A stretch of 22,451 nucleotides of DNA from a virus. The stretch lies in IMG/VR virus record IMGVR_UViG_3300030090_004503, positions 1-22,451 of that record; one strand, written 5' to 3'. Positions 4,135 through 22,451 of this stretch are shown piece after piece. How positions within the stretch are numbered: the stretch's first letter is position 1; every line of letters begins with the position of its first letter. Under the pieces are notes generated by a model. The model ran no database searches. It was not told the DNA's origin and saw nothing but the letters and a program-made list of their open reading frames with translations. A program made the translations under genes and the position numbers.

Positions 4135-4296
4135 ATGGACAAAGAAAAAGCTTTATATCAAAGTAAAATAGCAATATTAGAAGGTAATTGTGCTAAATAT
4201 TCATATGCATATGATGTGCTAATGACATATTTTGACAAACTACCTGATGATATTCAAAGAATTGTTCATAAGCAATTAAAGGAGGTTGACTTATGA
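4135..4296 (+). CDS. Small helical hypothetical protein, 53 aa
   Basis: The chosen start is the ATG at 4135 (MDKEKALYQSKI), which has an ATAGGAGAAAT site. A longer reading from 4027 would run back through the structured RNA element and has no ribosome binding site. The protein is predicted all-helical (two helices joined near a Gly-Asn), acidic at the middle (KLPDDIQRIV), and possibly a small coiled-coil. No family is recognised. It opens a run of overlapping genes leading into the ubiquitin-like protein gene and ends with an ATGA overlap. Confidence 0.6.
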   Translation: MDKEKALYQSKIAILEGNCAKYSYAYDVLMTYFDKLPDDIQRIVHKQLKEVDL

Positions 4297-4439
4297 TAGA
4301 AAAAGAAGAAGAATGGTATAGTGTATGTTGTTATGCTCCTCCATTGTATGATATAGACACTAGTTATAGTGAACCAATAGGTTTATGTATGCATTGTAGA
4401 GATAATACAACATTTGAATTAATAAAGGAGGAAGAATAA
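4293..4439 (+). CDS. Small zinc-ribbon-like protein, 48 aa
   Basis: The sequence holds two cysteine pairs: VCCYAPP (C12, C13) and GLCMHCRDNTTFE (C32-x-x-C35). This spacing and the CC-x-A-P-P...G-x-C-x-x-C pattern resemble very short phage zinc-ribbon proteins of unknown function. One of C12 or C13 plus the C32/C35 pair gives at least three zinc ligands. The gene overlaps the previous one by 4 bp (ATGA) with GGAGG immediately upstream, and joins the next through TAATG. It may bind nucleic acid or host transcription proteins, which is inference. The assignment rests on the Cys pattern. Confidence 0.65.
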   Translation: MIEKEEEWYSVCCYAPPLYDIDTSYSEPIGLCMHCRDNTTFELIKEEE

Positions 4440-4573
4440 TGTGTTATTGGGAAGATAAAGCAGATATGTATATTGATTCGCAGATAGAAATACAGAAACA
4501 ATTTAGCAGAATTGCTAAATATAACAAAAACGAAATAATCCTTAAGGAGGGAAATAAAAATGGCAAACGATAG
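4439..4573 (+). CDS. Small hypothetical protein, 44 aa
   Basis: It starts MCYWEDKADMY from an ATG sharing its A with the stop of the zinc-ribbon gene, preceded by AAAGGAGGAAGAA. It is a mostly helical polar peptide (residues 10-33) ending in basic residues, and overlaps the ubiquitin-like gene by 14 bp. The end of its reading frame contains that gene's AAGGAGGG ribosome binding site, so translation of the two is probably coupled. No family is recognised; it could exist mainly to couple translation. Confidence 0.5.
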   Translation: MCYWEDKADMYIDSQIEIQKQFSRIAKYNKNEIILKEGNKNGKR

Positions 4574-4772
4574 TATAACAATCAACTTGTTAGAAAACGG
4601 AGAGTTCGCATCTAGAGAAACATCATCTAAAACAGTAGGTGATTTAAGAAACGAACTAGACATACCAGCATCAGCAAATGTTATGGTAGCAGGAACTATT
4701 AGACAAAATGATTTTGAATTGTCTGATGGTGCGTTAGTAGCCTATGCAAGTAATAATAAAGTAGGTGGATAG
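4560..4772 (+). CDS. Ubiquitin-like (beta-grasp) protein ending in Gly-Gly
   Basis: This is a 70-aa protein with the layout of a ThiS/MoaD/ubiquitin beta-grasp domain. It has an N-terminal strand (SITINLLENG), a helix (TVGDLRNELDIP, residues 25-36), a strand with the typical V-x-V-A-G turn (VMVAGTIRQ, 41-49), and a D-x-x-L-S-D-G-A-L-V-A-Y segment leading to NNKVGG. The terminal Gly69-Gly70 is what E1-like enzymes adenylate. Because it already ends in GG, no processing is needed before activation. Genes for an E2-like protein, a JAMM protease and an E1-like enzyme follow, so its role is most likely covalent attachment to targets. Sulphur-carrier function (ThiS/MoaD-like) is the alternative, but no thiamine or molybdopterin genes are present. 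Strong AAGGAGGG site. Confidence 0.8.
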   Translation: MANDSITINLLENGEFASRETSSKTVGDLRNELDIPASANVMVAGTIRQNDFELSDGALVAYASNNKVGG

Positions 4773-4788
4773 TAAGTAAACGATAACT

Positions 4789-4912
4789 TTAAATGAGAGA
4801 TGTAAGTCCCGAGAAGACACTCGTAGATAAGCCTGTAACGTTGCAAAATCAGGTTATAGAAATGTTCAATCTATATTAAATATCCTGAAAACGTAGGCAT
4901 TCTCTCATTTAA
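4789..4912 (+). ncRNA. Structured RNA element between Ubl and E2-like genes, with pseudoknot
   Basis: TTAAATGAGAGA (4789-4800) pairs perfectly with TCTCTCATTTAA (4901-4912). Inside are hairpin CGAG/CTCG (4810-4813/4820-4823) and hairpin CCTG/CAGG (4832-4835/4850-4853). The loop of the second carries ACGTT (4838-4842), complementary to AACGT (4890-4894). A further hairpin, TATAG/CTATA (4855-4859/4871-4875), lies between. The AAGGAG site of the next gene begins about 9 nt after the closing helix. It splits the conjugation module into Ubl and enzyme halves and could set their relative expression. Confidence 0.65.
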
Positions 4913-4932
4913 TACAAAACGAAGGAGATAAA

Positions 4933-6426
4933 ATGGCATTTTATAATGGTAATTCATATTGTGATGTAGAAAGTTTAAGTTATTTATCTGATTTAAGTCA
5001 AGATGACGCTAATTTATTAGCATGTGGTCCTCAAGATTTATTTTTTGATAAATTAGACATGCTCAATCAAGAATTGAATGCTTTTGGCATAAGTTCTATT
5101 GATGTAACAAATAAATGGAATTGGAAACCAGGTTCATATGACAAAATTAAAGAGTATATGTATAAAAAGCTCGAATTAAACAAAAAAGCAATGGGTGTAG
5201 ATAGAATAATGATGAGAGCCCAAGATAATATGAATTATATGAACTACATTCAAAGAAGAGCAAGAGAAATAGAGCTTGAAAAAGGTAATCTTAAGCAGTT
5301 AGGAGTTAGCAGAGATACAGATGTAGAAGCATTTAAAGAAAAGTGTGTTGAATTTGTAAATAAATTACAACAAGGCTGTATTAATGCTAAAAAATTAACT
5401 GAAGATAAGGTTATTATAGACCCTTATATACAAATAAATAGTAGAAATCAATCTAATTTATATTTAGATATTACATTAAGAAATTTAATACTATCTGTAT
5501 ATGATGGAGCAGAAAATCCTAAATTAGTTCAAGAAATACCTATGTCAGATATAAATATTATATTTGGTATATCTTTAAGGCATATAATAAATGATATAAA
5601 AGCTCAGTTTAATCTAAATGGCAAATATAGGTCAGGAGGATTAAATTTAAATCATCCTTATATAGCAAGTGGAAGATATAACACTGAAAGATATGGTACA
5701 GTTTGTTTAGATTCTTTTTATGATGATGTAGTTAAATCAGTTAAAGAACTAGATATGGTTAAATTGTCAATGATATTGATGCAATGGGCTCAATATTACA
5801 ATTTTAAAATATCTAATCCATACAATCAACCATATATGTCTCACATAGGTATGCCTAACAGTTTTTCAGAAGAATATAAAGCATTATGTTCTTCTTCAAC
5901 TGTAGCAGATTTTTGTTCTAATAGATTGTACAATTTTGGAACAAACTTAAAAATGGATAATTTCAGTAAAGATAAAATAATGATTGACGCATGTGATAAA
6001 GTTGATTGCTCTCTTAAAGATATATGTGAAAGACATGTAAGAGCTAAAGAAAGACAAGAAACTTTAAATACCGAATTTGGTTATATGGCACAATCATTAT
6101 CTTATAAAATAATAGAGTATTTATTTGACAAATATGAAGATGATGATTCAAGTATTACTTATCAAATAAATGAAATAACTGGTGGAGACTTGTATCCAAA
6201 TTCAGAAAACGATGAATTTAAAGATGATTGCTTTAAAACATTATTATGGTATTATGCTAACTTTAAAGGAAACGATTTCTGTAGATACACTTATTCATTT
6301 TTAGAAAGAGAAGGGTTGATTGAACTAAAGAAAGAAGAAGACAAAACACCATCTGTAACTGATATGGATGAAGAGCAACTTAAAACGATAATGAAAACAT
6401 GGGCAGATTCCCAAGGAGGTGTGTAA
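4933..6426 (+). CDS. Large protein with E2 (UBC)-like conjugating-enzyme motif
   Basis: A 497-aa protein. Residues 241-260 read H-P-Y-I, then eleven residues later Y-G-T-V-C-L-D (C258). This closely follows the ubiquitin-conjugating E2 signature H-P-N-I...G-x-I-C-L-D, in which the Cys carries ubiquitin as a thioester. A helix (KLSMILMQWAQYYN) and an N-P-Y-N-x-P segment follow, comparable to the helix and N-P-D region after the E2 cysteine. It is far longer than a minimal E2 (about 150 aa): roughly 180 residues of helical, charged sequence precede and about 190 follow the UBC-like core. These could select targets or act as an E3. Strong AAGGAGAT start. It ends in a TAATG junction with the JAMM protease gene. 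The E2 assignment is motif plus context; structure prediction would settle it. Confidence 0.7.
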   Translation: MAFYNGNSYCDVESLSYLSDLSQDDANLLACGPQDLFFDKLDMLNQELNAFGISSIDVTNKWNWKPGSYDKIKEYMYKKLELNKKAMGVDRIMMRAQDNMNYMNYIQRRAREIELEKGNLKQLGVSRDTDVEAFKEKCVEFVNKLQQGCINAKKLTEDKVIIDPYIQINSRNQSNLYLDITLRNLILSVYDGAENPKLVQEIPMSDINIIFGISLRHIINDIKAQFNLNGKYRSGGLNLNHPYIASGRYNTERYGTVCLDSFYDDVVKSVKELDMVKLSMILMQWAQYYNFKISNPYNQPYMSHIGMPNSFSEEYKALCSSSTVADFCSNRLYNFGTNLKMDNFSKDKIMIDACDKVDCSLKDICERHVRAKERQETLNTEFGYMAQSLSYKIIEYLFDKYEDDDSSITYQINEITGGDLYPNSENDEFKDDCFKTLLWYYANFKGNDFCRYTYSFLEREGLIELKKEEDKTPSVTDMDEEQLKTIMKTWADSQGGV

Positions 6427-7349
6427 TGGAGTTAGAAGAAATATTTTATATCAATGAAAAAGATTGGTATAAATTACAAGGCTGGGCTAAACTGGCTTAC
6501 GATGAAGATAAAAATGAAATATCTGGATTAATGACAGCAGTACCACAAGAAGATGGTAGATTTAAAGTGGGAGATGTTGAGATACTAAAACAAGAAAATA
6601 CAGGAACTAATACAGAATTAGATGGAGATGCTGTTAGTGCCTATATGATGAAACATGGTATGAAATACAATAATACAGATATGAAGTTTGTTTGGTGGCA
6701 TTCACATCATACCATGGGAGCGTTTTGGTCTGGAACTGATGAAAATGAAATCAAAGCATGGAAGAATAGTAGTTTTTCTTTGGCTTTAGTTATCAATCTT
6801 AAAGAAGAGTATTTATTTAGAGTTAGTTTTTGGAAGACAAATGGTCTACCAATTGAACAGCATATAGATACTACTTTAACTATAGAAAGAGAAGAGCCAA
6901 AAATAAAAATAACAAAGGCAATGCAGAAACAATATGAAGAGCTATGCTCAAGTCCTGTACAAATAAGAAACAATTGGCAATATGGTGGTTATATGAATTA
7001 TAATAACACAAGACAAACCAATATATGGACAAGAGATGAAGCTAGTTTAAATATGGAATCTGCATATGGTCAATTGCTTGAAAAAATAGAAGGATTGCAA
7101 GATGGTTTTATGGATGGAACAATAAAAATCAAGCAATTCAAAAACTCAATTAAAGAAGCTAATAAAGTATGCAAAGACAATAAGTATCCTTTCAGATTAA
7201 TAGAACATAATCTAAAATCTGAAGAACTTATGAGTTTGCTAATGACTAAATTACCAAGTGAATTGATTGAGTTTGATGATAATAAAATAAAAGATGAACT
7301 AGAAACAGAAGCTTGGAACAATAGCTTTAGGGGGTTTGGATGGCAATAA
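6426..7349 (+). CDS. JAMM/JAB-family metalloprotease (deubiquitinase-like)
   Basis: The protein has 307 aa from the ATG at 6426, chosen because it has an AAGGAGGTG site and a TAATG junction; an in-frame ATG at 6399 lies inside the upstream gene. The JAMM zinc-protease signature is complete: E31 (NEISGLM), then H92-S-H94-x7-S102-x-x-D105. This family cleaves isopeptide bonds between ubiquitin-like modifiers and their targets. Residues 1-150 form the JAB domain. The C-terminal half is helical and charged, without a recognised domain, and may bind substrate or the E2-like partner. Because the Ubl already ends in GG, removing or editing conjugates is more likely than maturation. It overlaps the E1-like gene by 10 bp. 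Confidence 0.88.
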   Translation: MELEEIFYINEKDWYKLQGWAKLAYDEDKNEISGLMTAVPQEDGRFKVGDVEILKQENTGTNTELDGDAVSAYMMKHGMKYNNTDMKFVWWHSHHTMGAFWSGTDENEIKAWKNSSFSLALVINLKEEYLFRVSFWKTNGLPIEQHIDTTLTIEREEPKIKITKAMQKQYEELCSSPVQIRNNWQYGGYMNYNNTRQTNIWTRDEASLNMESAYGQLLEKIEGLQDGFMDGTIKIKQFKNSIKEANKVCKDNKYPFRLIEHNLKSEELMSLLMTKLPSELIEFDDNKIKDELETEAWNNSFRGFGWQ

Positions 7350-8008
7350 ACATGAGAAGTAGAGGGTTAGTAGACAACCTTAATCAGTTCAATTATCATA
7401 TATTAGGTTGCGGTGCTATAGGTAGTGCCGCAGCCCTCCAACTATGTAGGATGGGTGCAGAAAATTTCTGTTTATATGATAATGATGAAGTAGATACAGG
7501 TAATATAGGTGTTTCACAATATACTATATATGACGTGGGTTATGCAAAAGTAGATATGTTAAAATCTAAACTAAAAGATATAAATGACTCAGTAGAAGTA
7601 GTATGTATGGAAGAAATGTTTAGCAATTACGTGTATATGGACGACAATGACATAATAATCCTAGGTTTTGACAGCATGAAGTCTAGAATGGATGCTGTTA
7701 AAGCAATAGGCAAATGGAAACGTTCTAAACCGTATGCTTTAATAGACGGAAGAATGGGTGCTGAGCATTATCAGCAATATGTTATTTTAAAACCTACTTT
7801 AAGTAAGTATGAACAAGTATGGTATCCTGATGAAGAAGGTAGTGAAGAGCCTTGCAATATGAAGGCAACAAGCTATTGTAGCAATATGTCTGGTAGTTTT
7901 ATTGCAAATGCCGTCAGGAAAATAATAAAAGAACAACCATATGAGGAATTTGTGTCATTTCATTTTCCTACTATGTCAATAGAAAAAACTACTTGTTTAT
8001 ATAAGTAG
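7340..8008 (+). CDS. E1/ThiF-like Ubl-activating enzyme
   Basis: A 222-aa protein matching the ThiF/MoeB/E1 adenylation fold. It has G23-C-G-A-I-G28 (nucleotide loop), YDNDEVDTGNIGVSQ with D47, D49, N55 and Q60, then Y-D-V-G-Y-A-K70. LGFDSMKSR (D111, R116) and LIDGRMGAE follow. C180 in the SYCSNMSGSF segment (or C172) is the likely thioester cysteine. The family activates the C-terminal Gly of a beta-grasp protein with ATP. The usual Arg after the N-x-x motif (N-L-x-R-Q) is replaced by Ser (N-I-G-V-S-Q), a departure from MoeB/ThiF. It is shorter than MoeB (about 250 aa) and lacks the zinc CxxC pairs. Last gene of the conjugation operon; a structured RNA element follows. Confidence 0.85.
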   Translation: MAINMRSRGLVDNLNQFNYHILGCGAIGSAAALQLCRMGAENFCLYDNDEVDTGNIGVSQYTIYDVGYAKVDMLKSKLKDINDSVEVVCMEEMFSNYVYMDDNDIIILGFDSMKSRMDAVKAIGKWKRSKPYALIDGRMGAEHYQQYVILKPTLSKYEQVWYPDEEGSEEPCNMKATSYCSNMSGSFIANAVRKIIKEQPYEEFVSFHFPTMSIEKTTCLYK

Positions 8009-8178: not shown

Positions 8179-8853
8179 ATGGCGTTAAAGAAAGTCAAAA
8201 GGAAAGCTGTCTCTCAAAATCCTAAAGTAATGTTACTTTATGGAGCACCAAAAGTAGGGAAAACAACAGCTTTAAGTCAATTAGAAGATTGTCTTATAAT
8301 TGATACAGAAGATGGTGCAAATATGGTAGAAGGTTACATCGAAACTGCAAATGATAGAGAAGATTTTATTAATATTCTCAAAGAAGCAAAAGATGGACAC
8401 GACTACAAATATGTAGCTATAGATACTATAGATAAAATAGCTATGTGGGCAGAAAATACAGTATGTCAAGAAGAAGGAGTATCTGCCGTATCTGACCTAG
8501 CATTTGGCAAAGGTTTTGGTATGGTAAGAGAGAAAGTTCTAAATACTGTAAATGCTCTTAAATCAATATTTCCTCATGTAATTATCATCGGACATAGGAA
8601 ATGGGCTAAAGCCGTAGTAGATAGTAAAGCAATAGTAGAACCAGAAAGTCTAGATTTAACAGGTAAATTAAAGAATATGTTAATGGCAGACTGTGATGCT
8701 ATAGGCTATGTCTACAGAGATGAAGAAAAAGGCGATTTAATGGTATCATTTAAAGCAAATGAAGCATTAGAAGCTGGAAGTAGAAGTCCTCACTTAAAAG
8801 GTAAGGATATGAAGTTAACTTGGAATAATATATACAAAAAGGAGAATAAATAA
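8179..8853 (+). CDS. RecA-like ATPase, Sak4-type recombination protein
   Basis: A 224-aa AAA/RecA-fold ATPase with Walker A G22-A-P-K-V-G-K28-T29 and Walker B ending at D82 (YKYVAIDTIDK). A later HVIIIGHRK strand (H139) fits the sensor position of phage AAA_24/Sak4 proteins. These act in single-strand annealing and recombination during phage replication. The size and the placement directly before an SSB-like gene and the primase-helicase are typical of that family. The start has an AAGGAGA site 8 nt after a region free of strong structure. It ends in a TAATG junction with the next gene. A generic phage nucleotide-binding protein is the conservative alternative name. Confidence 0.75.
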   Translation: MALKKVKRKAVSQNPKVMLLYGAPKVGKTTALSQLEDCLIIDTEDGANMVEGYIETANDREDFINILKEAKDGHDYKYVAIDTIDKIAMWAENTVCQEEGVSAVSDLAFGKGFGMVREKVLNTVNALKSIFPHVIIIGHRKWAKAVVDSKAIVEPESLDLTGKLKNMLMADCDAIGYVYRDEEKGDLMVSFKANEALEAGSRSPHLKGKDMKLTWNNIYKKENK

Positions 8854-9455
8854 TGGCGATATATAGACCACCAATGACAGAGTCAACAGGCGGAAACAAA
8901 TTTACAGGTATCTGTAATTTTGGAATAGTAGGTTACGAAGATAAATCAGATATGTTTGATTGGGCTGATTTATACTTAGAAATAGAAGTCAAACAAGAAC
9001 ATAGTGACTACACTAGAAAACTGCAAATAAAAGGTTCTTTTGAAAAAGATTCAGCAGGTAATATAACTGGTGGTAGTGTTCTTAAAAGACTTTATAATTT
9101 CTTTGATGCTATTAGTTGCACAGCTGGCTTGAATATTAAAGGCGAATGGGAAACTGAAGAAGGTCATAAAATAGAAAATATAGCTAATTATCTTAATGAA
9201 AGAGGTACAGATGGAACAGCTCAAGAAATGCCTGTTTATAGATATTTGGCTTATTTCTATAAAGAACAACCTAAGAAACCAGGAGCTAAATCATATGTAA
9301 ATGTTTGGCCTAAGGTATACTTAGCATCAGAAGAAAATTCTGGAAAACTACAGAAAGATATAGATTGGTTAAAAGGTAAAGGTTATCTTAAGGAATTAAG
9401 TGACGAAATTACACAAGCTCCAATAATGAATGGGGACGGTTTATCTAATCTATGA
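8853..9455 (+). CDS. Probable single-stranded DNA-binding protein (SSB-like)
   Basis: A 200-aa protein with an apparently beta-rich N-terminal half (GICNFGIVGYED, WADLYLEIEVK, TRKLQIKGSF) that would suit an OB-like fold. A helix (GGSVLKRLYNFFDAI), a W-E-T-E-E-G-H loop and a YVNVWPKVYLASEE strand follow. The C-terminus is a flexible tail ending NGDGLSNL. Phage Sak4-type ATPases are often paired with SSB genes, and this one is joined to the ATPase by TAATG and to the primase-helicase by ATGA. The fold was judged by eye and there is no diagnostic motif, so the function is mainly inferred from context. Confidence 0.5.
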   Translation: MAIYRPPMTESTGGNKFTGICNFGIVGYEDKSDMFDWADLYLEIEVKQEHSDYTRKLQIKGSFEKDSAGNITGGSVLKRLYNFFDAISCTAGLNIKGEWETEEGHKIENIANYLNERGTDGTAQEMPVYRYLAYFYKEQPKKPGAKSYVNVWPKVYLASEENSGKLQKDIDWLKGKGYLKELSDEITQAPIMNGDGLSNL

Positions 9456-11215
9456 ACTACGTTGAAATAGCTAAAGGAACTCCTTTTAATAGAGGAATCA
9501 TCATACCTATTGATAGGTTAGGAAATCATATAGGGGAGGAGCCTGTTTATAGAAGTGTTTATCTATACGATGAATCAGCTTTTGAATATGTAAAAGAAAA
9601 TGGCAGTTTAAAGAATTTCTTTGGTGTCAGATACATAGACAAAATACCTGTAGATATAGACAAGCAAGACAGGAGTGATGAAAGAACTTTAGATATTTTA
9701 AGAGGTATTATCCTAGAACTAGAGGATGCAGATATTGGTTGTGGGAGCTTCCAATCTTATTTCTCTGGTTCTGGATACCACCTCATTTTATCAGGAGAAT
9801 TGTTCAATTTTCAGCCAGGAAATGATTTGCCTTTTATTGTTAAACAAACAATGAAAAAGTTAATGCCAGATATTGATTCCAGTATTTATATGAGAACTGG
9901 TATCTACAGACTTCAGCATACTATAAATCAAAAAACTGACTTATATAAAATTCCATTAACTCGAAATGAAGTTATGAATAAGAACCCTGATGAAATCTTT
10001 GAACTCGCCAAAACTCCAAGAATCGATTTTCCTTATATAAAGTTAGGAGGAAATGGCGAGTTTGAAGATAGAATAATCAAAGAAGTTCCTGATGTTCAAG
10101 TGTTTAACAAAATATCAGAACCGAATAAGATAATACCTTGTGTTCAGTCTATGCTTAATCAAGGAGCAAGAGAAGGCAGTAGACACATTACAGCTATGAG
10201 AATTATTAGCCATTTTAAAAGACACGGAATACCAAGCCATTATGCAAAAGTATGTATGTTGCATTGGAATAACAAAAGTATGCCAGAGCAACAAGTAATG
10301 GAAATGGTAGAAAACGTGTATAATAGAAATTATAAATATGGTTGTCAAGATACTGTAATGTTACAGCATTGTAAAACGCAATGTATTCACTTTCAAAGAA
10401 AAGACTATTTAGTAGATATAAAATCAGCATCAACAATGCAAGAAGAACTATCTGAACGTTTGACTACTGACTTTAGTGGTAAAACTATCGATTTAAGTAA
10501 AGCATTAGGATTAGATGTTGAGTCAACTATATATCCAGGAGAACTAGTAACTATATTCGGGCCTACTGGTTCAAATAAAACTACATTTGCTCAAAATTTA
10601 GCATTAGGTGTAGACTTTGTCAATAACAAGATTGTAAAAGAATGGCAAATACCCACCTTATTTCTAAGTCTAGAGCTATCTTCTTGGTATATGCATAGAA
10701 GACATCTGCAAATAGTATCAGCTAAAACAAAAGAACAAGTAAACGATAATTACCAAGTATTATACGACACGCATAAAGACGAGTTAGAGCACATTATGGT
10801 GCAAACTATATCTCCTACTTTAGATAAGATATATGAAAAAGTTAGAGAATTACAGCCACAATTAGTTATTGTAGATTATATTGATTTAGTAGATACTCCA
10901 GTTAGTTATAGAGGAGAATACGAAAAAATCAAATATATATCTCACGGATTATCTAATATGGCTGTAAACAACGACTTAATAGTAATTCAAATATCTCAAG
11001 TAAGCAGAGAATATAGCAGAAATGAAGTTCTTGACTTGTATGCAGGTAAAGGGTCAGGTGCAATAGAAAATGCCTCTAGAAAAGTGATTGGTCTAAATGG
11101 ACAATCAAAATCTCCAACAAGAGCAGTAAGGCTTTTCAAAAACACTGATGGCGAATTATTTGATACTGAAGTTGAGTGGACACCTAGTTTTAGATTAAGG
11201 AGGACACATGGGTAA
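9452..11215 (+). CDS. Primase-helicase (AEP-like primase plus DnaB/RecA-like helicase)
   Basis: A 587-aa bifunctional replication protein. The N-terminal part has V-D68-I-D70 (metal-binding acidic pair), FSGSGYH (S105-H110), matching the S-G-x-G-Y/F-H motif of archaeo-eukaryotic-type primases, and a GIYRLQHTINQKTDLYKIPL segment (R-x-x-x-S/T...K-T type). C268, C298, C307 and C311 may hold zinc or an Fe-S cluster. The C-terminal part is a DnaB-like motor: Walker A G370-P-T-G-S-N-K376-T377, LSLELS, and Walker B LVIVDYIDL (D475). Such proteins prime and unwind DNA at phage forks. Start overlaps the previous stop (ATGA). No DNA polymerase gene is in the window. Confidence 0.82.
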   Translation: MNYVEIAKGTPFNRGIIIPIDRLGNHIGEEPVYRSVYLYDESAFEYVKENGSLKNFFGVRYIDKIPVDIDKQDRSDERTLDILRGIILELEDADIGCGSFQSYFSGSGYHLILSGELFNFQPGNDLPFIVKQTMKKLMPDIDSSIYMRTGIYRLQHTINQKTDLYKIPLTRNEVMNKNPDEIFELAKTPRIDFPYIKLGGNGEFEDRIIKEVPDVQVFNKISEPNKIIPCVQSMLNQGAREGSRHITAMRIISHFKRHGIPSHYAKVCMLHWNNKSMPEQQVMEMVENVYNRNYKYGCQDTVMLQHCKTQCIHFQRKDYLVDIKSASTMQEELSERLTTDFSGKTIDLSKALGLDVESTIYPGELVTIFGPTGSNKTTFAQNLALGVDFVNNKIVKEWQIPTLFLSLELSSWYMHRRHLQIVSAKTKEQVNDNYQVLYDTHKDELEHIMVQTISPTLDKIYEKVRELQPQLVIVDYIDLVDTPVSYRGEYEKIKYISHGLSNMAVNNDLIVIQISQVSREYSRNEVLDLYAGKGSGAIENASRKVIGLNGQSKSPTRAVRLFKNTDGELFDTEVEWTPSFRLRRTHG

Positions 11216-11426
11216 AATAATCGGAGTACTATTCACAGAAAGAAAGTTTATCATATTCTTATTTCAGATATTTAGAATAGGAATAATTAAATCGAAAATA
11301 ACAAGAGGTATAACTAAAAGAAGTATACTTTTAGGGATATGGCGTTTTGATTTCGAATTAGGAGTTTCTTTCTTGAAAAGCCATAAAGCATTCTTACCTA
11401 CAAGAGGCGAATATGGACAAGCGTAA
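11208..11426 (+). CDS. Small basic hypothetical protein, 72 aa
   Basis: The ATG overlaps the end of the primase-helicase gene by 8 bp and has an AAGGAGGACAC site. The N-terminal half is hydrophobic (FIIFLFQIFRIGII), then basic (KSKITRGITKR), then WRFDFELGVSFL. Its end overlaps the HNH gene by 14 bp. It could be a short membrane-associated or beta-rich protein; no family is recognised. Good ribosome binding site and tight packing support it as a real gene. Confidence 0.5.
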   Translation: MGKIIGVLFTERKFIIFLFQIFRIGIIKSKITRGITKRSILLGIWRFDFELGVSFLKSHKAFLPTRGEYGQA

Positions 11427-11904
11427 AACAAACAAACCTTTAAGGGGGCGAAAGTCCCCTAAAGGAATTACAATTTGGGAAAATAAGTTCAATAAAAAGT
11501 TGAAGAGACATCATAAACATTTTGCTAAAAAAGTGTTTCATAGATTAATGAAGAAATCATCAACTTTAAGAACTACCTTAAAAAGAAGGAGCAAAGAATA
11601 TGAAGTTGAATTTAACATTAGTCTTAATGAAGTTAGAGAAATTCTATACAAAGCTTATGGAAAAAAATGTAGATATTGTGATAGTAGGCTACTTGTCAAT
11701 AATATGGCATGTGACCATATCCATCCTTTGTCTTTGGGCGGTAATTCAACTCCTCCTAATCTTCAAATGATTTGTATGAGGTGTAATACTAGAAAAGGAC
11801 CTTTAACAGACAAAGATTTTAACAAACTCTTAAGATGGCTTAAAAGACAAAATATAGAGCTTTCTAAATACGTATTAAGAAAACTATCAAGTAGAGATTT
11901 TTAG
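11413..11904 (+). CDS. HNH endonuclease
   Basis: A 163-aa protein. The C-terminal half has a complete HNH zinc-finger nuclease motif: C86-x-x-C89, then C100-D101-H102-I-H-P-L-S-L-G-G, N116, and C121-x-x-C124-N125. The D-H pair and Asn are the active-site residues and the two CxxC pairs bind structural zinc. The first 75 residues are very basic (RGRKSPKG, KKLKRHHKHFAKK) and probably bind DNA. This resembles free-standing phage homing-type nucleases inserted between genes, though it could instead serve replication or packaging. The start region contains a strong hairpin (listed separately), and its TAG stop lies in the first arm of the next RNA element. The ribosome binding site (AAGAGGCG) is weak. 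Confidence 0.85.
   Translation: MDKRKTNKPLRGRKSPKGITIWENKFNKKLKRHHKHFAKKVFHRLMKKSSTLRTTLKRRSKEYEVEFNISLNEVREILYKAYGKKCRYCDSRLLVNNMACDHIHPLSLGGNSTPPNLQMICMRCNTRKGPLTDKDFNKLLRWLKRQNIELSKYVLRKLSSRDF
11437..11465 (+). promoter_or_regulatory. Stable GNRA-tetraloop hairpin inside the start of the HNH gene
   Basis: CCTTT-A-AGGGGGC pairs with GTCCCCT-AAAGG around a GAAA loop closed by C-G, with one bulged A and one G-U pair. It begins 24 nt after the HNH start codon. A C(GAAA)G cap is a hallmark of a folded RNA. It may limit HNH translation, as hairpins near phage homing-endonuclease starts are known to do. Confidence 0.55.
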
Positions 11905-13954: not shown

Positions 13955-14135
13955 ATGCCCTATATGTAGAGAACTCATAACACCTTCGTCATTAACCTAC
14001 AAAATATCTTCAGGATTTCAAAACGAAGATGGAAGTTATTACGAACAAGCAACAATCATAATACATAAAGAATGTAGTTATGATTACCTTTATAATCCAT
14101 TCGAAAAATTAGAAGAAGACATTAAGAATAGTTAG
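13947..14135 (+). CDS. Small zinc-finger-like protein, 62 aa
   Basis: C4-P-I-C7 near the N-terminus and H40-K-E-C43 near the middle make a plausible C2HC zinc site holding together a short beta-sheet (LTYKISSGF, ATIIIHKEC). It ends with an acidic tail. It overlaps the previous gene by 8 bp and its stop overlaps that of the giant convergent gene by 4 bp, so there is no room for a normal bidirectional terminator. Role unknown. Confidence 0.6.
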   Translation: MIKCPICRELITPSSLTYKISSGFQNEDGSYYEQATIIIHKECSYDYLYNPFEKLEEDIKNS

Positions 14136-17100
14136 AATATATCTATACTTTTGCCTGGAGTAATGGGCTCATAGTTTTCTTCTCTCATTCTTTTAGCATG
14201 TTGAGAGAATCCAGTTAATGGAAATCCGAATACTTTTTCAGGTATTCTCATAGGGTTTTTAAATATGTTTTGCTCTGGATGAAGTAAATCTCTACCCATT
14301 CTTCCAAAAGGAAACATAGTCCAAATATAATAATCAGCTAATTTAGTATAATCATCTTCAGCAAACTCCCTGATTATAGATATAGGGAATCTAGCAATAG
14401 GAGGAGTTATCATTTGAAGAGGAGCAATAGCACTTGGATATGTTCCAAAAAATGCTCTATCTCTTTCTTTTTCATCTCCAAATACCCATTGTGCAGTATC
14501 TTGAATCCAGCCATATGGAGCTGGAATAGTTTGCTCAAACATAGAATACATAAATAAAGAACCTAAAGCCATTACAAATAAATCAGTAGTCATCATTCTT
14601 TCAAACTTTTTCATTCCTTCACTTCCAGGCTTATATCCATATCTTTTTGCAAGTTTTCTTACATCATTTCTGAATCTAACAGCATTCCAAGCCCATAATT
14701 GGAAACGTGTCATTGTTTTTCCTAAAGCAGAACGAGCAAATGCAGGTCTAAATGGAGCAGAATACAAAAATTGTGTAGCCTTTACACCTTTTTTAGCAAG
14801 TTCTATTAAAATAGGGCTATCTGGGTTTTTAATTGAACCTCCAAATCTTTCCCACGCCTTAATATAATGAGCCAAATAAGCATCTCTTCTTAATCTTCTT
14901 TCTGGAATTGACATAAACTTAGCAGCTAAATCCATTATAGGTTTAGTTACTCCGTGTTTTTTACGCAATGCTTCTAATTCAGCTTTAGCAATTTCTTGAC
15001 CACCTTTTGCTTTTGCAGATACAGCATCTATAAATTCTTCATTTTTTATTCCTCTTAAAGATTTGTCTAGCCCTAGTTCATGTTTAGCTAGTTCAACCTG
15101 TATTCCATGTTCATCTAAATGCCTTATAACACCCTCTTCATTTTCAAATTTTCTATTAATTGTTTTAAGATATTCATAGTCATAAGCTTTTCTTAAAGGC
15201 TCATATCCAGCAGATTGGAATGTATGCATAGTTCCACCAAATATATTATTAATAGGAGTTTTAGGATGCGTCATTAAAGTAGCTAATTGGAATCTAGCCT
15301 CTAAAGTTCCAATTTTTTGAACATCATAATTATCTAATTGCTGAAGTTCTTTAGGAAGTTCTTTGTCTTTATTTAGTAAGTTTAAAGATTCTCCAATTTT
15401 ATTAAGCCTATTGGCAAATATATTATCTGCAAACCAACCATAAGGAGTTGTGCTTACATGCAAATTAGGGTTATTCCAAGCCTCTGAGCTTACGATACTA
15501 GGAGCTCCCATAGCCTCTCTAGTATATTGCCTCCAAAACCAGTCCCAATTTCTTACAACTTCTAATGCATCTTCATAATCTTTTTCTTTGCCCTTTTTAG
15601 CTTCTTTAGTTATTTTATTAAACCACTTAGGATTTTCAGCAATTTTTTGTGTATTTCTTTTATGCATATTATGCAAAGTTTCTCTAGTAATCAAATTTGT
15701 CATAGTATCATAAAGATTTTTAGTTGCATTCTGTATATAGATACCATGAATTACAGGGTCCATCATATAATCTAATTTATGATTTTCTCTGCTTCTTTGA
15801 TTGCCAGTTCTTCTTGTTATTGATTGTAAATTAGCAGTATTTAATCTGTCTGTTTCATATTCAGCCAATTCATCTTTAACTCTTTTAAACATCATTCTAT
15901 CTAAAGTTGTAATATAATCTTGATTTCTACCTAAATCATAATCTCCATTTTGAAATTTATATTTCATAAAGTTAGCTTTCATTTCTTGAACGTATTCATT
16001 AGATATTTTTTTATACATTTTGCTATCAAGAGGTACACCTTCTAATTCTTTTTCAAATTTAGCTCTAATTTCATTTTGTTCTTTCATCATTACTTCTTTA
16101 CTTGCTTTAGTATCATTGAAATAATGAGGAATATAACCTTTTCTGTATCCAGTTTCAGGAACAATTAACTTTTCAAGAGTTTTTAGTTTCTTCTCTGTAT
16201 CTGGTTTGTAGAACTTTTGTTCTTTTTTAGACAAATTAAAGTATTCTTCAGCAGAGATTATTTCTTCTGTAATTTCTCCAGTTTTCTTATCAACAATCTC
16301 TTTTATATATTGTTCTGTTTTTAGATTTTCTATAGCCATAGAACGCATAAGCTGACGCATTCCATCACTTCCAACATTTAAAGCAAAATCTAAAGCTTTA
16401 TCAGGCCCTTTTGCCCAAGCTGTTCTTAAATCTCTCATAAACTTTTTAACATCAAGTCTTCGTTGAGTTTGTAGTTTGTCATAATAACCTAGAGTATAAT
16501 CAACTAAAGGATGCTTAGAGTAAAATCCATTTCCTACATCATCGTATTTTTCTTGTTCTTTTTTACTTAAAAGATTCCATTCGTCTTTATGTATTTTGTC
16601 AAACACACCGCTATTTAATTCGAATAATTTTTCATATTTAGATTCTATTGTTTTCATTAAATGATTTACGACTTGCCAACCTTTATAACTTCTTCTTCCA
16701 GAGCCATCCATATCTAACATATAATCTTTCTGAAACAAAGGGGTTCTTCCACTAGCAGTAGTTCTCCAGCCGTATAAATCTCTTAGTTTTTCCCACTTTT
16801 GAACATATGCTTGTTTTAATTCTGTATTATCTAATAATTCTCGTTGTTTTAATTCTATTTTAGCTAAAGCTATATTATGCAATGCCATACCATCTTTTGT
16901 TTGATTTAGAAAGTTTATATCTTCCATAAATTCATTTGACAATCTAGCGGAATGTGCTTCTTGCATAGAAGTCATTCTGTGTATTTGACTTTGTAATACT
17001 TCTCCCCAGGAAGTAGGATAAAGCATATCAACTTCTTTAGCTTCTTTACCAGCCCAATCTTTTAGAAACCCTTTTCTTTGCATAAAAACTATGTCTTCAG

Positions 17101-20100
17101 CCATTTGTTCATTAGATACCATTAAAGGAAACTGCATTTGATTTCTAGCTTTTAAAGATAATCTTTTTAATAAAGGTAACTGTTTTTCCCAATGTTTAAA
17201 AACACCGCCTTGTTTAATTTCTTTGTAAGTATTAATAACTCTTCTAAAGTCTGATAAATTCCATTGGTCTACAGACTTAGTAACAGGGTCAAAAGGGTCT
17301 ATATATGTATAAAGCCCCATTAAAGTTCTATTTAATTTTTCCATATTAAAATTAGGGTCTGTTACAATCAAATTAGCAAATTCAGATACAACTTTAGATT
17401 GTTCTGGAGTGAGTTTCCCTTTACGCATATTTTCCATACCAACAATATCGCCTATTAAAGAGTTTCCTATTTCAGGCTCTAGTATTTCTCTATATCTTAC
17501 TTCAGGGTCAAATAGTTCAACTACTTTACTTTTTTCAAATTTTTCTATATGCTTTTCAACTTTAGGGCTTATTTTTGGTGCTTTTCCAGCCTGTTTATAA
17601 AACTCATTCATAGATTCAAGAAACTTTTTAATATTACTACTAGAAACTTCTCTAGAATTAAAAGCAGCTCTAGTGCTTCCAGTTCTTGCCCCTTCTCTTT
17701 TATAAAGAAAACGTAATGCATCTTTTTGCATTTCACTCTTATAAGGAAGAGATTCGTAAGTGTTTTTTATTTGATTACTAACATTTTTATTTCTAAAAGA
17801 GCTTAATAATAAAGTGTCAAACATATCTTTTGCATATTTTGAAGATAGTCTATTTTTAAAGTCTCTTATAGCATTATCAATTCTTACTTGGTCTAATATT
17901 TTAGTTCCAGTAGTTTCAGGAGCTTTACCTTTTTCAGCATTTACTAAATCTAACCATACTTGTATTTCAGGGTCATTTTTTTTAGATGCTGTAGATGTTT
18001 CTTCTAAAGAAGATTTTAAAATCCTTCTTTGCTCTAAGTTTGATTTGTCTATTTTTTTAATAAATTCAGCATTCTCAAACATTTCGCTAAATTCTCTGTC
18101 TGATATTTTTTGACCAGCTTTAATAGCATCTTTGTATATTTCTAAGATTCTAGAAAAACCTCCCATTTCCCAAACTGAATTTTCTAAAAACTCTTCTGTT
18201 GTTTTTACAAATTTATCAAGCTTTTCTTTAACTTGCTTTTGATTCATTTCAGGTGTAATTTCGTGGAAATAATCTTTTATATCTGCTTTTCTAAACTCTT
18301 TAATAATATCTGCAGGATTAGATTCGGACATAAGTTCTCTTTTGTAAGAATTTTGTAATTTTTTGTCAAACATAAAAGTTATTTGCTTGCTTTCTGGATA
18401 ATCTAATTTAGTTCTGTCTAAGAGTTTTTTAAATACATCTTTCTCAGGTAATGATTTCATTAACTTGTTATAATCATTTAAAGTTTTATTATAAGAAGTT
18501 TGATTAACTCTATCAAATATAGACATTCTTAAATCTACACCTTGCATCATTTTAGCCAATCTAGGTAACGCTGTGTTCATTTCTGGCTCAGTTAACTTGT
18601 CTATTCCTTTAATTAATTCTTGTTTTTGGTCATATGTAAACTTCTTTCCTGTATTAAAATCTTGACCATAAAATGCTCTATTAATATCAGAAAATAAATT
18701 AAATCTACTTTGTTTTGTTATATTAGGAGCGTATAATCTTTTTATTGCTATAGTTGATTTAGGATAATCAAGAAAACCACTTCCAGCACTTAAAAAAGAA
18801 TAATTTGACTCCATCCACCCACGTTCAGGATGAAGTATTTGCACTTTAGGTTTTTGATAATATGCGTCAGTAAGAAGACGTGATATTTGTTGTCTATTTA
18901 TAAGGCCTAATTCATTAGCTGGGTCAGCAGTAAATCTTATCAAAGCAGAAGATAAAGTTAACTGTCTTAATTTATCAATTTCACTTGTCTTTGGTGCTCT
19001 AATAATTCTATATGTTGTTTGTTCATTTTCAGGAATCGTTTTATAAGCTCCTGTTTTAAAATCAAATTTTTTCGAAATAGTACCCTCTTCTACTACATCA
19101 ACTCCTGTTTTATCCCTTTTGCCTATTTTTATAGGGCTTTTAATAACAGAAGCCCAAGCGGCTCTATGATTTTGTGTCATGCTAACTACATCTGACATTA
19201 AAGCCCTTGAACTAGCAGTTTGTTCGCCTACAAAACCTCTTAATGTAGGAGAAAATTGAGCATACGGAAAAGCATCGTTTTTATTTATAGTATAATTAAA
19301 TATATTTTCAGGTATATTTAATTCTTTTATAGTTTCAGGATTTAACACTACTTCATGATGGTGCATGTCTTTTACTTGGGAATAAACAGGTTTTTTAGGA
19401 GGTTGTTTTATATATAAAGGAGCAAATATAACTGTTCCATCAGATTGCTTTACATTTTCTGCAGTTCTATGTGTATAAATATCTTTATAGGTAGCGCCTT
19501 CTTTGTTTGTTTTTTCAATAGCTTTTCCTTCAATTAATCCAAATGATTTTAAAATATCTTTAGCAGGAGTTTTACCTTGTAAATATCCAGGAGGAGCAAC
19601 ACCTCTTGTTTTCTTTCCAAGAAGTCTTGCTACTTCAAGACCTATCATATCAGCCCCTAACTGGCCTCCACTTCTAACAAATTCAACATCTTTTAACCCT
19701 TCTTTTAAAGCTGCTTCTATATTTTTCTTAGTAATGTTTACATCTTTATCTGGATATACTTTTAAACCTTTAGGTCTAGAACCAGCTACATTTATTTCTT
19801 TAATTCCAAAACGTTTAATAAAATCTGCTAATTCTTTTCCTGTAGGATTGACTATGTAAGGTTTATTATTATCATTTGCAAAACGAGCAGTAAGACGACT
19901 TCCAGGGCTTTCAATATCGGTAGGAAATACTTCACCTCTACTTGTAAATTCATCTTTCTGATTTTTATACATTTGAAGCCATTCTTGTTTCATTCCTTCG
20001 CCAGAGCCATCTGCTCTTCTTCCTCCAAAATACATAAATGCACTATCTGCATCAAGGTCAGCACCACCTAGTTTTTCCATAGCTCTTCCATGTATTAGTA

Positions 20101-22451
20101 TCCCATGGTCTTTTATACCAGAAAAACCTGCAAATCTTAACACCTGTGCTCCTGAAGCAGAATCCTGTGGAATTCTTACTGTCAATCCATCAAAAAGAGA
20201 TTTATATTCATTTTTTTCAAAACCAGTTGATTTTTGATATTTATTCCAAACTTTTTGTAAAGTAGACCATTTATTTGTCAAAGGGTTATAAAAAGGAGTA
20301 TCAAAATATAAGTCTCCTAAAACAACAAGCTCATCTGCTTTTACTCCATGTTTTTTAATAGCTTGTGCATCGCTGTCAAACTCAGGATACTTTACATCTA
20401 ATTCAAACTCTGTATAAGGCCTTAATCGCCCTTTTATGGAGTTTTTAACTCTAGGGCTCATTACTTTATCAATAAGCCAATTTTCCACTGCTTTTTCAAC
20501 AAATTCTTTAGTATACTTCCCGTGAAATAAAGGAAGAGCTTCTCGCCCTAAAGCAGATGCGTGTTTTATTATATTATCAGCAGTAGTCGTGAACTCTGCA
20601 ATATTTTGCATACTATCTGTAATATTACCATAAAAAGATTCTCCTTCTAACATAAGTCGTTCTTGTGCTTCTCTTGAAACATTCATCATTTCTAAAATCA
20701 TTTCTTGAGAAAGTTTTTCATATTCAGGTTTAGTTAAAATATCCTGTATCTCTTTTACTCCCATATTATGGAAATGTTCTTTGACTATTTCAAATTCTGT
20801 TCCTGGAATAGCCACACCTTTTTCTGCCAATTCTTTTTTATAAAGAGTTAATTCAGTATTCGCTTCTTTTGTTCCTTTAAAAGATTCCCCTACTAAAGTG
20901 TCAAAAAAGTCTAATGGAATTTCTTTTGAAACATTTTTCATTTCAGCATTAGGTAAGATTAAAGTTTGTTTAGGCATTGGTATTCCTTTATAAACACCAT
21001 TTTTAATACCTAAATTTGAAGGACCATCATAAACTCCGTAATTATACCTAAATGAACCAGGGTCTATTTCAAATATTTCAGCCCCTTCTACTAATAATTC
21101 ATTTTTAGTAGTTTCAATTTTAATTATATCTTCAAATCTATTAGCAGTTTCATTATATATATAATTGCCTTTACCTTCTTTTGTCATGGTATTAGCAAAT
21201 TGTATTTTAGACCTTACAGGGTCAAACATATCTACCATTTTTCCTGTTTTTTTGTCTTTTTTAAGAAATGCGTCATTTCTTCTTATTATTAGCTTTGAGC
21301 CTAGTTGAGTAGGGTCAGTAGGATTAGGGGTGTCTACATAAGTATTCCATTCTTGTTCTATTTCAAAACCTGTTTTTATAATTTTCTTTTTAGTTTTGCC
21401 ACGTTCAAATTTATATCCGCCTGCTTTAATATTACCTGTTTGTTTGCTAGATGTATCATAAATAATGAAATTTAAACCATCTCCTAATTCGGGATTATTT
21501 GTCTTAAAGTTTCTCATCGCTTCACTAAGTTCAGGAGAAGTATTATGAACCATATGCTTCAGCATTAAAGGGCCGTCCATAACAATAGATTTTTCATTTC
21601 CTTGAACATATTTAGAACCTCTATCTAAATGCAGAGCATCCATTGTTTTCATTTCAGACAATGTTGCACCATCTCTAATTTGTTCCATTTCAGAATTAGT
21701 TAATTCTAATAAGTCCTTTAAAGCCTTTTTTGTTTTAACTATAATTGCTTTAAAATTACCTTTATTTGACAAATTCAATCCTAGTGTATTCATTAAAGCT
21801 TTGTCGCCTCTCCATCCAGAGTTTAAAATAACTGGCAATCTCTTATTCATTTTAACTGTATTGTCTATAAAGCCATCTTTACCTATAAATTGATTCATCG
21901 GAAGTCCATTAATATCTTCGTGATATTTTAACATAGACTTCATTCCTCTTATTTCTTGCTCTCTAGTAAGCCCATAATTTTCTTTTCCATATTTAACAAT
22001 TTCATTTAACATATCTGTAAATTTCTTATCAGTAGGCAGTTTTACTGTATCAGTCATAGGATGATATTTGACAAATACCAACCTATCTTTATCGCCTTCT
22101 CCTCCCCATAGATGCATATTGTGCATTTCTTCCATATCTTTAACAATGTTTTTAATAGCATTTTTTTTCATTTCTTTTGCTTTTTCAGAAATCTCTTCAT
22201 AGGTTTTATATTTATTTTCCCCTTTTGAAGTTAATTCTGATTCTAAATAATGAGAAGCTTTTTGCTCAAATCTAATAAGCTCAACATCTTGTCCATTAAA
22301 TAAAACAGAGTCAATATATCCATTTTTAGGACCAGCAGTTATTTTAGGACCAGCAGTTGGTTTAATTTGTTGTTTAATAGGAGCTGGTTGAGAAACAGGC
22401 TCTGTTAATTCAGGGGCAAATTTAGTTCTTCTAAATGTCAAACTTAATCTA
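14132..22451 (-). CDS. Giant multidomain virion-type protein: RNA-polymerase-like motifs plus SLOG domain (5' end open)
   Basis: At least 2769 codons (numbered here from the TTG at 22441); the frame stays open to the edge, with no ribosome binding site before the TTG, so the true start is probably outside. Residues 756-799 run R-I-P-Q-D-S-A-S-G-A-Q...G-G-A-D795-L-D797-A-D799. This resembles the second double-psi beta-barrel of crAss-like/YonO-type RNA polymerases, whose DxDxD binds catalytic magnesium. YDTSSK333 upstream may be the first barrel's lysine. Residues 883-1010 form a SLOG/YpsA-like domain: V-A-G-S-R, S924-G-G-Q-L-G-A-D, H-R-T-A-E-N, S1000-D-G-T. TASSRALMSDVV...NHRAA (about 1072-1099) and FTADPANELGL (about 1168-1178) recall segments after the barrel in such polymerases. 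The C-terminal half is helical, with a hydrophobic stretch near 2618-2636. A polymerase or polyvalent protein injected with DNA is the leading idea. Confidence 0.62.
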   Translation of the reverse strand, partial: RLSLTFRRTKFAPELTEPVSQPAPIKQQIKPTAGPKITAGPKNGYIDSVLFNGQDVELIRFEQKASHYLESELTSKGENKYKTYEEISEKAKEMKKNAIKNIVKDMEEMHNMHLWGGEGDKDRLVFVKYHPMTDTVKLPTDKKFTDMLNEIVKYGKENYGLTREQEIRGMKSMLKYHEDINGLPMNQFIGKDGFIDNTVKMNKRLPVILNSGWRGDKALMNTLGLNLSNKGNFKAIIVKTKKALKDLLELTNSEMEQIRDGATLSEMKTMDALHLDRGSKYVQGNEKSIVMDGPLMLKHMVHNTSPELSEAMRNFKTNNPELGDGLNFIIYDTSSKQTGNIKAGGYKFERGKTKKKIIKTGFEIEQEWNTYVDTPNPTDPTQLGSKLIIRRNDAFLKKDKKTGKMVDMFDPVRSKIQFANTMTKEGKGNYIYNETANRFEDIIKIETTKNELLVEGAEIFEIDPGSFRYNYGVYDGPSNLGIKNGVYKGIPMPKQTLILPNAEMKNVSKEIPLDFFDTLVGESFKGTKEANTELTLYKKELAEKGVAIPGTEFEIVKEHFHNMGVKEIQDILTKPEYEKLSQEMILEMMNVSREAQERLMLEGESFYGNITDSMQNIAEFTTTADNIIKHASALGREALPLFHGKYTKEFVEKAVENWLIDKVMSPRVKNSIKGRLRPYTEFELDVKYPEFDSDAQAIKKHGVKADELVVLGDLYFDTPFYNPLTNKWSTLQKVWNKYQKSTGFEKNEYKSLFDGLTVRIPQDSASGAQVLRFAGFSGIKDHGILIHGRAMEKLGGADLDADSAFMYFGGRRADGSGEGMKQEWLQMYKNQKDEFTSRGEVFPTDIESPGSRLTARFANDNNKPYIVNPTGKELADFIKRFGIKEINVAGSRPKGLKVYPDKDVNITKKNIEAALKEGLKDVEFVRSGGQLGADMIGLEVARLLGKKTRGVAPPGYLQGKTPAKDILKSFGLIEGKAIEKTNKEGATYKDIYTHRTAENVKQSDGTVIFAPLYIKQPPKKPVYSQVKDMHHHEVVLNPETIKELNIPENIFNYTINKNDAFPYAQFSPTLRGFVGEQTASSRALMSDVVSMTQNHRAAWASVIKSPIKIGKRDKTGVDVVEEGTISKKFDFKTGAYKTIPENEQTTYRIIRAPKTSEIDKLRQLTLSSALIRFTADPANELGLINRQQISRLLTDAYYQKPKVQILHPERGWMESNYSFLSAGSGFLDYPKSTIAIKRLYAPNITKQSRFNLFSDINRAFYGQDFNTGKKFTYDQKQELIKGIDKLTEPEMNTALPRLAKMMQGVDLRMSIFDRVNQTSYNKTLNDYNKLMKSLPEKDVFKKLLDRTKLDYPESKQITFMFDKKLQNSYKRELMSESNPADIIKEFRKADIKDYFHEITPEMNQKQVKEKLDKFVKTTEEFLENSVWEMGGFSRILEIYKDAIKAGQKISDREFSEMFENAEFIKKIDKSNLEQRRILKSSLEETSTASKKNDPEIQVWLDLVNAEKGKAPETTGTKILDQVRIDNAIRDFKNRLSSKYAKDMFDTLLLSSFRNKNVSNQIKNTYESLPYKSEMQKDALRFLYKREGARTGSTRAAFNSREVSSSNIKKFLESMNEFYKQAGKAPKISPKVEKHIEKFEKSKVVELFDPEVRYREILEPEIGNSLIGDIVGMENMRKGKLTPEQSKVVSEFANLIVTDPNFNMEKLNRTLMGLYTYIDPFDPVTKSVDQWNLSDFRRVINTYKEIKQGGVFKHWEKQLPLLKRLSLKARNQMQFPLMVSNEQMAEDIVFMQRKGFLKDWAGKEAKEVDMLYPTSWGEVLQSQIHRMTSMQEAHSARLSNEFMEDINFLNQTKDGMALHNIALAKIELKQRELLDNTELKQAYVQKWEKLRDLYGWRTTASGRTPLFQKDYMLDMDGSGRRSYKGWQVVNHLMKTIESKYEKLFELNSGVFDKIHKDEWNLLSKKEQEKYDDVGNGFYSKHPLVDYTLGYYDKLQTQRRLDVKKFMRDLRTAWAKGPDKALDFALNVGSDGMRQLMRSMAIENLKTEQYIKEIVDKKTGEITEEIISAEEYFNLSKKEQKFYKPDTEKKLKTLEKLIVPETGYRKGYIPHYFNDTKASKEVMMKEQNEIRAKFEKELEGVPLDSKMYKKISNEYVQEMKANFMKYKFQNGDYDLGRNQDYITTLDRMMFKRVKDELAEYETDRLNTANLQSITRRTGNQRSRENHKLDYMMDPVIHGIYIQNATKNLYDTMTNLITRETLHNMHKRNTQKIAENPKWFNKITKEAKKGKEKDYEDALEVVRNWDWFWRQYTREAMGAPSIVSSEAWNNPNLHVSTTPYGWFADNIFANRLNKIGESLNLLNKDKELPKELQQLDNYDVQKIGTLEARFQLATLMTHPKTPINNIFGGTMHTFQSAGYEPLRKAYDYEYLKTINRKFENEEGVIRHLDEHGIQVELAKHELGLDKSLRGIKNEEFIDAVSAKAKGGQEIAKAELEALRKKHGVTKPIMDLAAKFMSIPERRLRRDAYLAHYIKAWERFGGSIKNPDSPILIELAKKGVKATQFLYSAPFRPAFARSALGKTMTRFQLWAWNAVRFRNDVRKLAKRYGYKPGSEGMKKFERMMTTDLFVMALGSLFMYSMFEQTIPAPYGWIQDTAQWVFGDEKERDRAFFGTYPSAIAPLQMITPPIARFPISIIREFAEDDYTKLADYYIWTMFPFGRMGRDLLHPEQNIFKNPMRIPEKVFGFPLTGFSQHAKRMREENYEPITPGKSIDIF

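Follow-up and report, generated by a model that had tools for sequence, protein, structure and literature searches.

A predicted ubiquitin-like conjugation cassette among the replication genes of tailed phages

Introduction

Conjugation of ubiquitin-like proteins (Ubls) in bacteria is known mainly as a means of antiphage defence or as a part of sulfur chemistry. In the Bil system (BilABCD), a Ubl, an E2, an E1 and a JAB-type protease act together, and it is by this content that Bil can be likened to the set of genes considered here, which is carried by a viral sequence of 22,451 bp representing one whole IMG/VR record (IMGVR_UViG_3300030090_004503, hereafter the window) and which encodes a Ubl, an E2-like protein, a JAMM/JAB metalloprotease and an E1-like ThiF-family adenylyltransferase, in this order. 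Whereas Bil is bacterial and directed against phages, the present cassette is a core component of a phage clade. As cited in PMC11364771, Bil attaches its Ubl to a phage tail fibre, and bacterial systems of such kind attack phages. From the evidence presented below, we infer, with a probability of roughly two in three, that the four genes form a working phage cassette for Ubl conjugation and deconjugation that is made together with the replication proteins. With a complete cassette as a core component of phages, the usual picture is reversed.

Bacterial operons with Ubl, E2, JAB and E1 content have been described since 2006 (Iyer 2006, PMC1779556). Type II CBASS (Cap2/Cap3) and the multi-ubiquitin type 6e operons resemble the phage set in having a ThiF-family E1, an E2 domain or protein, and a JAB or a substitute for it. 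However, Cap2 is a fused E2-E1 acting on a cyclase, whereas the phage E1 and E2 are separate genes, and type 6e operons combine tandem Ubls with DUF6527; moreover, the E1s of both lie outside the phage E1 clade. Neither a CD-NTase/cyclase nor a fused E2-E1 of the Cap2 kind was recognised among the scanned window proteins. Phages themselves are known to encode a Ub-like domain and a JAB in the tail genes TAPI and TAPK, respectively, of lambda and T1 (PMC1779556), but these are tail assembly genes for which no E1 or E2 is described, while the cassette sits with replication genes. A further likeness is offered by Borgs, virus-like elements with JAMM proteases (deSAMPylases) and one SAMP-like Ubl, although no four-gene conjugation cassette of such kind is described in the available part of that source (PMC12660748).

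The layout closest to that of the phage cassette is found in the plasmid PRTRC cassette, which has the content of type 6d of Iyer 2006. As in the phage, separate Ubl, E2-like, JAB and ThiF genes follow each other in the same relative order on a mobile replicon, the complete order being C (Ubl)-F-B (E2-like)-A (JAB)-ThiF, with protein F inserted between the Ubl and the E2, and the cysteine context of PRTRC ThiF (PSCSM) resembles the phage EPCNM. The differences are that PRTRC comprises ParB, E and F besides, no gene for these three being recognised next to the window cassette, and that type 6d E2-like proteins lack a His before the cysteine (PMC1779556), whereas phage E2s keep it (HPYI, HPHI, HSHV). 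In a Xanthomonas PRTRC plasmid (L226:1863-6651), the 131-residue protein C contains TKGG internally, with about 60 residues after it, similar to the Ubl precursors of crAss-type phages described below.

The four-gene cassette

All four genes lie on the plus strand and constitute one operon: the Ubl gene at 4560-4772, the E2-like gene at 4933-6426, the JAB gene at 6426-7349 and the E1 gene at 7340-8008. The reading frames of the last three overlap, with the start ATG of the JAB gene overlapping the stop codon of the E2 gene (the mechanically defined open reading frame begins nine codons earlier, at 6399). A preliminary description made from the sequence alone had delineated this Ubl, E2-like, JAMM and E1 set, and its coordinates, motifs, common strand and overlaps hold. 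Conservation was assessed with relatives from IMG/VR, where 221 stretches encode an E1 relative, 80 of which were fetched for comparison.

The Ubl is a protein of 70 residues ending in NNKVGG, and is predicted to be a beta-grasp modifier. Its AlphaFold model (mean predicted local distance difference test score, pLDDT, 83) displays the beta-grasp order of elements with a floppy Gly-Gly tail, in agreement with the fold that the preliminary description had proposed. The model is best matched by Mth1743 (1ryj; Foldseek E 2.3e-4, Z 8.5), followed by ThiS (2lek, Z 8.3), and also matches MoaD, the Caldiarchaeum ubiquitin and many ubiquitins. At the sequence level, the Pfam ThiS family (PF02597) remains sub-threshold, scoring 14.6 bits against a gathering cut-off of 22.5 (E 0.051). 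The C-terminal GG is present in 41/41 relatives, a few of which have short extra tails after it.

The E2-like protein (497 residues) is composed of an N-terminal helical region, a UBC-like core at about residues 135-305, a four-cysteine site and, at the C-terminus, a variable region in which W490 is conserved. The motif of E2 enzymes is HPN(I)...G-x-(I/V)-C-L-D, to which the window protein comes close with H241-P-Y-I...G-T-V-C258-L-D, where a Tyr takes the place of the Asn of HPN; P242, C258 and W285 are found in 45/45 relatives. The structural model (pLDDT 89) consists of a helix, a beta-meander and then two helices, with Cys258 in between. When aligned with VIA-align, nearly all of the top 50 rows were UBC/E2 domains over residues ~135-305, with Z scores of only 5-6.3, while a Foldseek search of the PDB with the full model returned no significant match (the TSG101 UEV domain had a probability of 0.51 and E 0.74) and Pfam no family up to E 1. 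Searching PDB sequences with an E2 profile (hmmsearch) returned chance helical matches with no E2 among them. Among viral protein structures, the E2 model matched a 420-residue protein (E 1.1e-4), a length shared by gp57 of Flavobacterium phage Fpv1 although this identity is unconfirmed, two podovirus proteins of 381 and 408 residues (E 3.9e-4 and 1.7e-3) and, as a weak match, a Faunusvirus protein annotated as an E2 enzyme; proteins closer than these were also matched. Since the Z scores are middling, the UBC fold is probable rather than proven, and the assignment gains weight from the E2-like motif together with the invariant C258, W285 and P242. Thus, of the E2-like identity previously proposed, the motif and its cysteine are borne out, whereas the UBC fold around C258 has moderate backing from the predicted structure. 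Following the core, the site C328-x25-C354-x4-C359-x5-C365 is kept in 33-39/39 relatives and is probably a metal site.

The JAB protein, with 307 residues counted from the ATG, is the predicted enzyme for processing and removal of the Ubl. It matches Pfam Prok-JAB with E 1.2e-4, slightly under the cut-off, and contains, as first described, every JAMM ligand (E31, H92, H94, S102 and D105), all of them invariant in 27/27 relatives.

The E1-like protein (222 residues) is unambiguous as to its family, scoring 74.3 bits against Pfam ThiF (PF00899; cut-off 28.1, E 1.1e-20), while PHROGs returned only families of unknown function. The GxGxxG and D47-x-D49 motifs already noted are present, and D47, D49, K70, D111 and R116 are invariant in relatives. 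In one respect the preliminary description needs to be corrected, as it had taken C180 for the catalytic cysteine. C172, within EPC172NMKAT, occurs in 27/28 relatives as aligned and is retained in the E1s of the phages crAss001, cr85 and Fpv1, while C180 is replaced by Met or Ala in two of these three. Because C172 is kept in distant phage E1s whereas C180 is not, and because its position corresponds to that of the ThiF/MoeB cysteine, C172 is the better candidate for thioester formation and most likely the catalytic residue.

Conservation and selection

Wherever the contigs of relatives are long enough, the order Ubl-E2-JAB-E1-Sak4-200-residue protein-helicase recurs. Dozens of relatives keep the order of the four genes and their catalytic residues even at 20-50% E2 identity, and this conservation places the cassette beyond chance. 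Whether it belongs to the core genes of the clade was probed through a search with the helicase, so that loci were not chosen on the module itself. Of the helicase loci newly obtained in this way, 24 extended upstream for 3.5 kb or more, and E1 and JAB were present in 24/24, 7 of them on contigs that the E1 scan had not returned; the cassette is therefore a core rather than a sporadic element in the phage clade of the window. All four genes are under purifying selection, which is strong for Ubl and E1 (ratio of nonsynonymous to synonymous substitution rates, dN/dS, ~0.1-0.2 in nearly all pairs), weaker for JAB (0.15-0.37) and weakest for E2 (0.44-0.72), whose variation is greatest in the C-terminal region.

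In phages with a helicase 55-60% identical to that of the window, the same slot is occupied by a diverged module or by a second type of module, here called type B. In the diverged module (loci L134 and L136), the Ubl reaches KKGGI and the E2 of L136 has HPFI...GNTCFGD. Type B (L137, L138 and L141), next to a helicase of 55-59% identity, is characterized by Ubl C-termini SNKSG or KNRSGV, an E2 motif HPHI/L..GxxC(M/F)G, a JAB motif IHSHxxMGAFFSGTD and an E1 with EPCTAKHTIF or ELCTMKHTIF; further loci of this type (L148, L149 and L199) have the Ubl tails KKSNKSG, KKKNKSGN and KKSTKSGD. All parts are kept, and the parts list is thus fixed despite the large sequence divergence. Type B and crAss-type E1s grouped together in one E1 tree, and type B took no resolved position in another; exchange of the module between phage lineages is thus possible, as far as the trees indicate.

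The cassette in other phages

No cultured relative of the window was found at the DNA level, and tblastn searches of named phages with the E2, JAB and Ubl gave no matches, so that the links to crAss001 and Fpv1 were made via the E1 and the order of genes. E1 relatives among named phages belong mostly to crAss-like and Flavobacterium phages, and in both the order Ubl-E2-JAB-E1 recurs without being annotated as such. In the cultured gut phage crAss001, Gp79-Gp78-Gp77-Gp76 correspond to Ubl-like, E2-like, JAB and ThiF proteins, in that order, and are currently annotated with terms such as thiamine biosynthesis, metalloprotease and hypothetical protein. Gp79 (225 residues) has an N-terminal Ubl-like region up to EKKIKSGA and then about 130 residues, and Gp78 has the E2-like motif YMHSHV...TPCTG. 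An extension after a tail like NKKIKSG is found in each of 27 crAss-type Ubl proteins, and among the crAss-type E2s the cysteine is retained by 34/34, the HSH residues by 32-33/34. The genes gp76-79 share one strand and are located between the primase gene gp80 and the uracil-DNA glycosylase gene gp74. Transcription of the crAss001 middle genes, most of which serve replication and recombination, begins at 10-30 min (PMC8375218).

In Flavobacterium phage Fpv1, gp58 contains KQVKSGGRGDG and is followed by the E2-like gp57, JAB and ThiF. Its JAB gene is split just 5' of the HSHN motif by an endonuclease gene on the reverse strand (gp54-gp56, L087:3653-5945), as if a homing element had settled at the active-site codons. 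A recognised group I intron does not explain this split, as no Rfam family was found in L087, nor was any found in the window. Another variant may be that of Xanthomonas phage PhiXhv-12, where an 892-residue protein with HPHM...SLCLGSF is encoded immediately 5' of a ThiF gene.

Profile comparisons relate the window JAB to the crAss JAB (97%), the crAss E2 to the Fpv E2 (99%) and the window-type E2 to that of the L134 type (99%), but the E2 of type B reached only P 0.0015 with the window E2 and with the crAss E2, at or across the active-site motif, and Ubls of different phage types gave P 0.003-0.025. The E1s and JABs of the window type and crAss type are clearly related. As the terminase families differ between the window clade and crAss001, the carriers of the cassette do not constitute one phage family.

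Distribution and origin

Two short peptide patterns from the E1 alignment, when run against 84,980 species genomes of bacteria and archaea, matched a single short contig; distant relatives could escape such patterns, so that the result speaks for the absence of near relatives only. This contig (L152; 3,681 bp) belongs to a metagenome-assembled genome of the Spirochaetia and is probably phage DNA within that assembly, since its E1 groups with that of crAss001. In a tree that included E1s of CBASS, multi-ubiquitin, TcdA and PRTRC systems, the 34 phage-type rows formed one group (support 98/97) and PRTRC another (98/94); with bacterial branches being long and bacterial rows few, this support for a phage clade falls short of proof. 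ThiF-family genes were also seen in other settings on plasmids: in Acinetobacter, two of them are adjacent to each other beside a BREX cluster (L210), and in Microcystis, one lies within a type III CRISPR locus (L212).

No report of a full Ubl-E2-JAB-E1 cassette belonging to the core genes of phages was found in the open-access literature, subscription papers and preprints being mostly outside that search, and a review of jumbo phages does not mention JAB, E2-like or ThiF proteins.

Proposed function and alternative explanations

According to the proposed mechanism, the E1 would bind ATP and adenylate the C-terminal glycine of the Ubl, which would then move as a thioester to Cys172 of the E1 and further to Cys258 of the UBC-like E2, to be attached to lysines of target proteins. 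No separate E3 gene was seen with the cassette, and the helical, metal-binding and fast-evolving C-terminal regions flanking the E2 core would probably choose the substrate. The JAMM protease would remove the Ubl from its targets, and may also trim precursors in those relatives that have residues after GG or SG, from the short tails mentioned above to 100-200 residues in crAss-like phages. As the cassette is located among replication genes in both the window and crAss001, it most likely targets proteins, of the phage or of its host, that work on DNA undergoing replication or recombination.

Several points weigh against this proposal. No conjugate has been observed; sequence profiles give no UBC match to the E2-like protein, whose fold relies on its motif and on middling structural Z scores (up to 6.3); profile comparison gives only weak homology of the window-type E2 and Ubl to their crAss-type counterparts, ranging from P 0.0015 via type B to ~0.2 directly; and the role in replication is guilt by association, not proof. 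To a broader statement we would give even odds, namely that a phage-specific lineage of Ubl conjugation systems is standard equipment for the replication stage in several tailed-phage groups unrelated to each other, cultured crAss-like gut phages among them, and reversibly tags replication or host proteins in mid-infection; if so, a Ubl modification pathway would be run by the virus itself and not by its host. The preliminary view that the set more likely modifies host or phage proteins than serves host defence fits these data, given that it is core in a phage clade, near-absent from cellular genomes in the one scan, and neighboured by replication genes in phages that are not related. The role of the cassette is directly testable, since crAss001 and Flavobacterium phages exist in culture; the proposal would assign a function to crAss001 Gp76-Gp79 and supply a minimal E1-E2-JAMM-Ubl set with which to study how ubiquitin signalling arose.

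Among the alternatives, the phage Ubl system could serve counter-defence, either with host defence proteins being tagged or stripped or through competition with Ubl-conjugating immunity of the host such as Bil or CBASS Cap2/Cap3; the preliminary description had likewise mentioned the countering of a Bil-like host system. In favour of this, bacterial Ubl systems attack phages (Bil, as cited in PMC11364771), and the E2, which evolves ~4-5 times faster than E1 and Ubl and fastest in its C-terminal region, is compatible with such a role without pointing to it specifically. However, the dN/dS of E2 stays below 1, so that an arms race is not proven; a counter-defence would be expected to occur sporadically, whereas the module belongs to the core genes and sits within the replication block, and the completeness of the charging chain, which includes a Ubl of its own, favours real conjugation over simple blocking. 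On balance, we regard this explanation as unlikely.

The Ubl might also be attached to virion proteins of the phage itself while particles are being assembled. Structural proteins can conceivably be tagged, since Bil puts a Ubl on a phage tail fibre (as cited in PMC11364771), and Ub-like/JAB pairs do occur within tail gene clusters of lambdoid phages (PMC1779556), but the module accompanies replication genes and, in a relative, lies on the strand opposite to the portal, head and terminase genes, which makes this role improbable.

We attach even less weight to the possibility that the Ubl acts as a sulfur carrier, forming a thiocarboxylate as ThiS and MoaD do, from which a small molecule or nucleic acid would receive the sulfur. 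Ubl and E1 are closest in fold and family to ThiS and ThiF, crAss annotations include a "thiamine biosynthesis protein", and Ubl/E1/JAB sets are found in sulfur pathways too (Iyer 2006, PMC1779556); nevertheless, an E2-like protein with an invariant cysteine is part of the set in all phage types examined, and no rhodanese, cysteine synthase or thiolase was recognised among the scanned neighbouring genes of the window.

Finally, kinship with the plasmid PRTRC cassette, with a role in replicon maintenance or partition, to which the shared gene order and an ssb gene located 3' of the cassette in one plasmid (L226) would lend themselves, is very improbable and membership was dropped, because the curated models score far under their cut-offs on window proteins (PRTRC_A E 0.024; PRTRC_ThiF 26.8 bits against 144.75; no match to PRTRC_B or PRTRC_C), hhalign gave no significant result for the phage E2 and Ubl profiles against those of PRTRC B and C, the additional PRTRC genes were not recognised beside the module, and the phage E1s exclude those of PRTRC in the tree.

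Neighbouring genes and other observations

The conclusion that the set is phage-encoded and part of a replication region is well supported. Its neighbours were identified by library scans of the window proteins. Downstream of the E1 gene follow a Sak4-like annealing protein (8179-8853), the 200-residue protein, a primase-helicase (9452-11215) and an HNH/endonuclease VII (11413-11904). Upstream of the Ubl gene, positions 4293-4439 encode a protein of 48 residues with CC...CxxC, possibly a small zinc ribbon, which is present 5' of the Ubl in several but not all relatives. At the other end of the window, an open-ended giant protein of 2,772 residues is encoded on the minus strand (14132-22450), residues 925-1010 of which match a cpYpsA/SLOG domain (E 1.9e-9); giant proteins are present in other phages of the window clade too.

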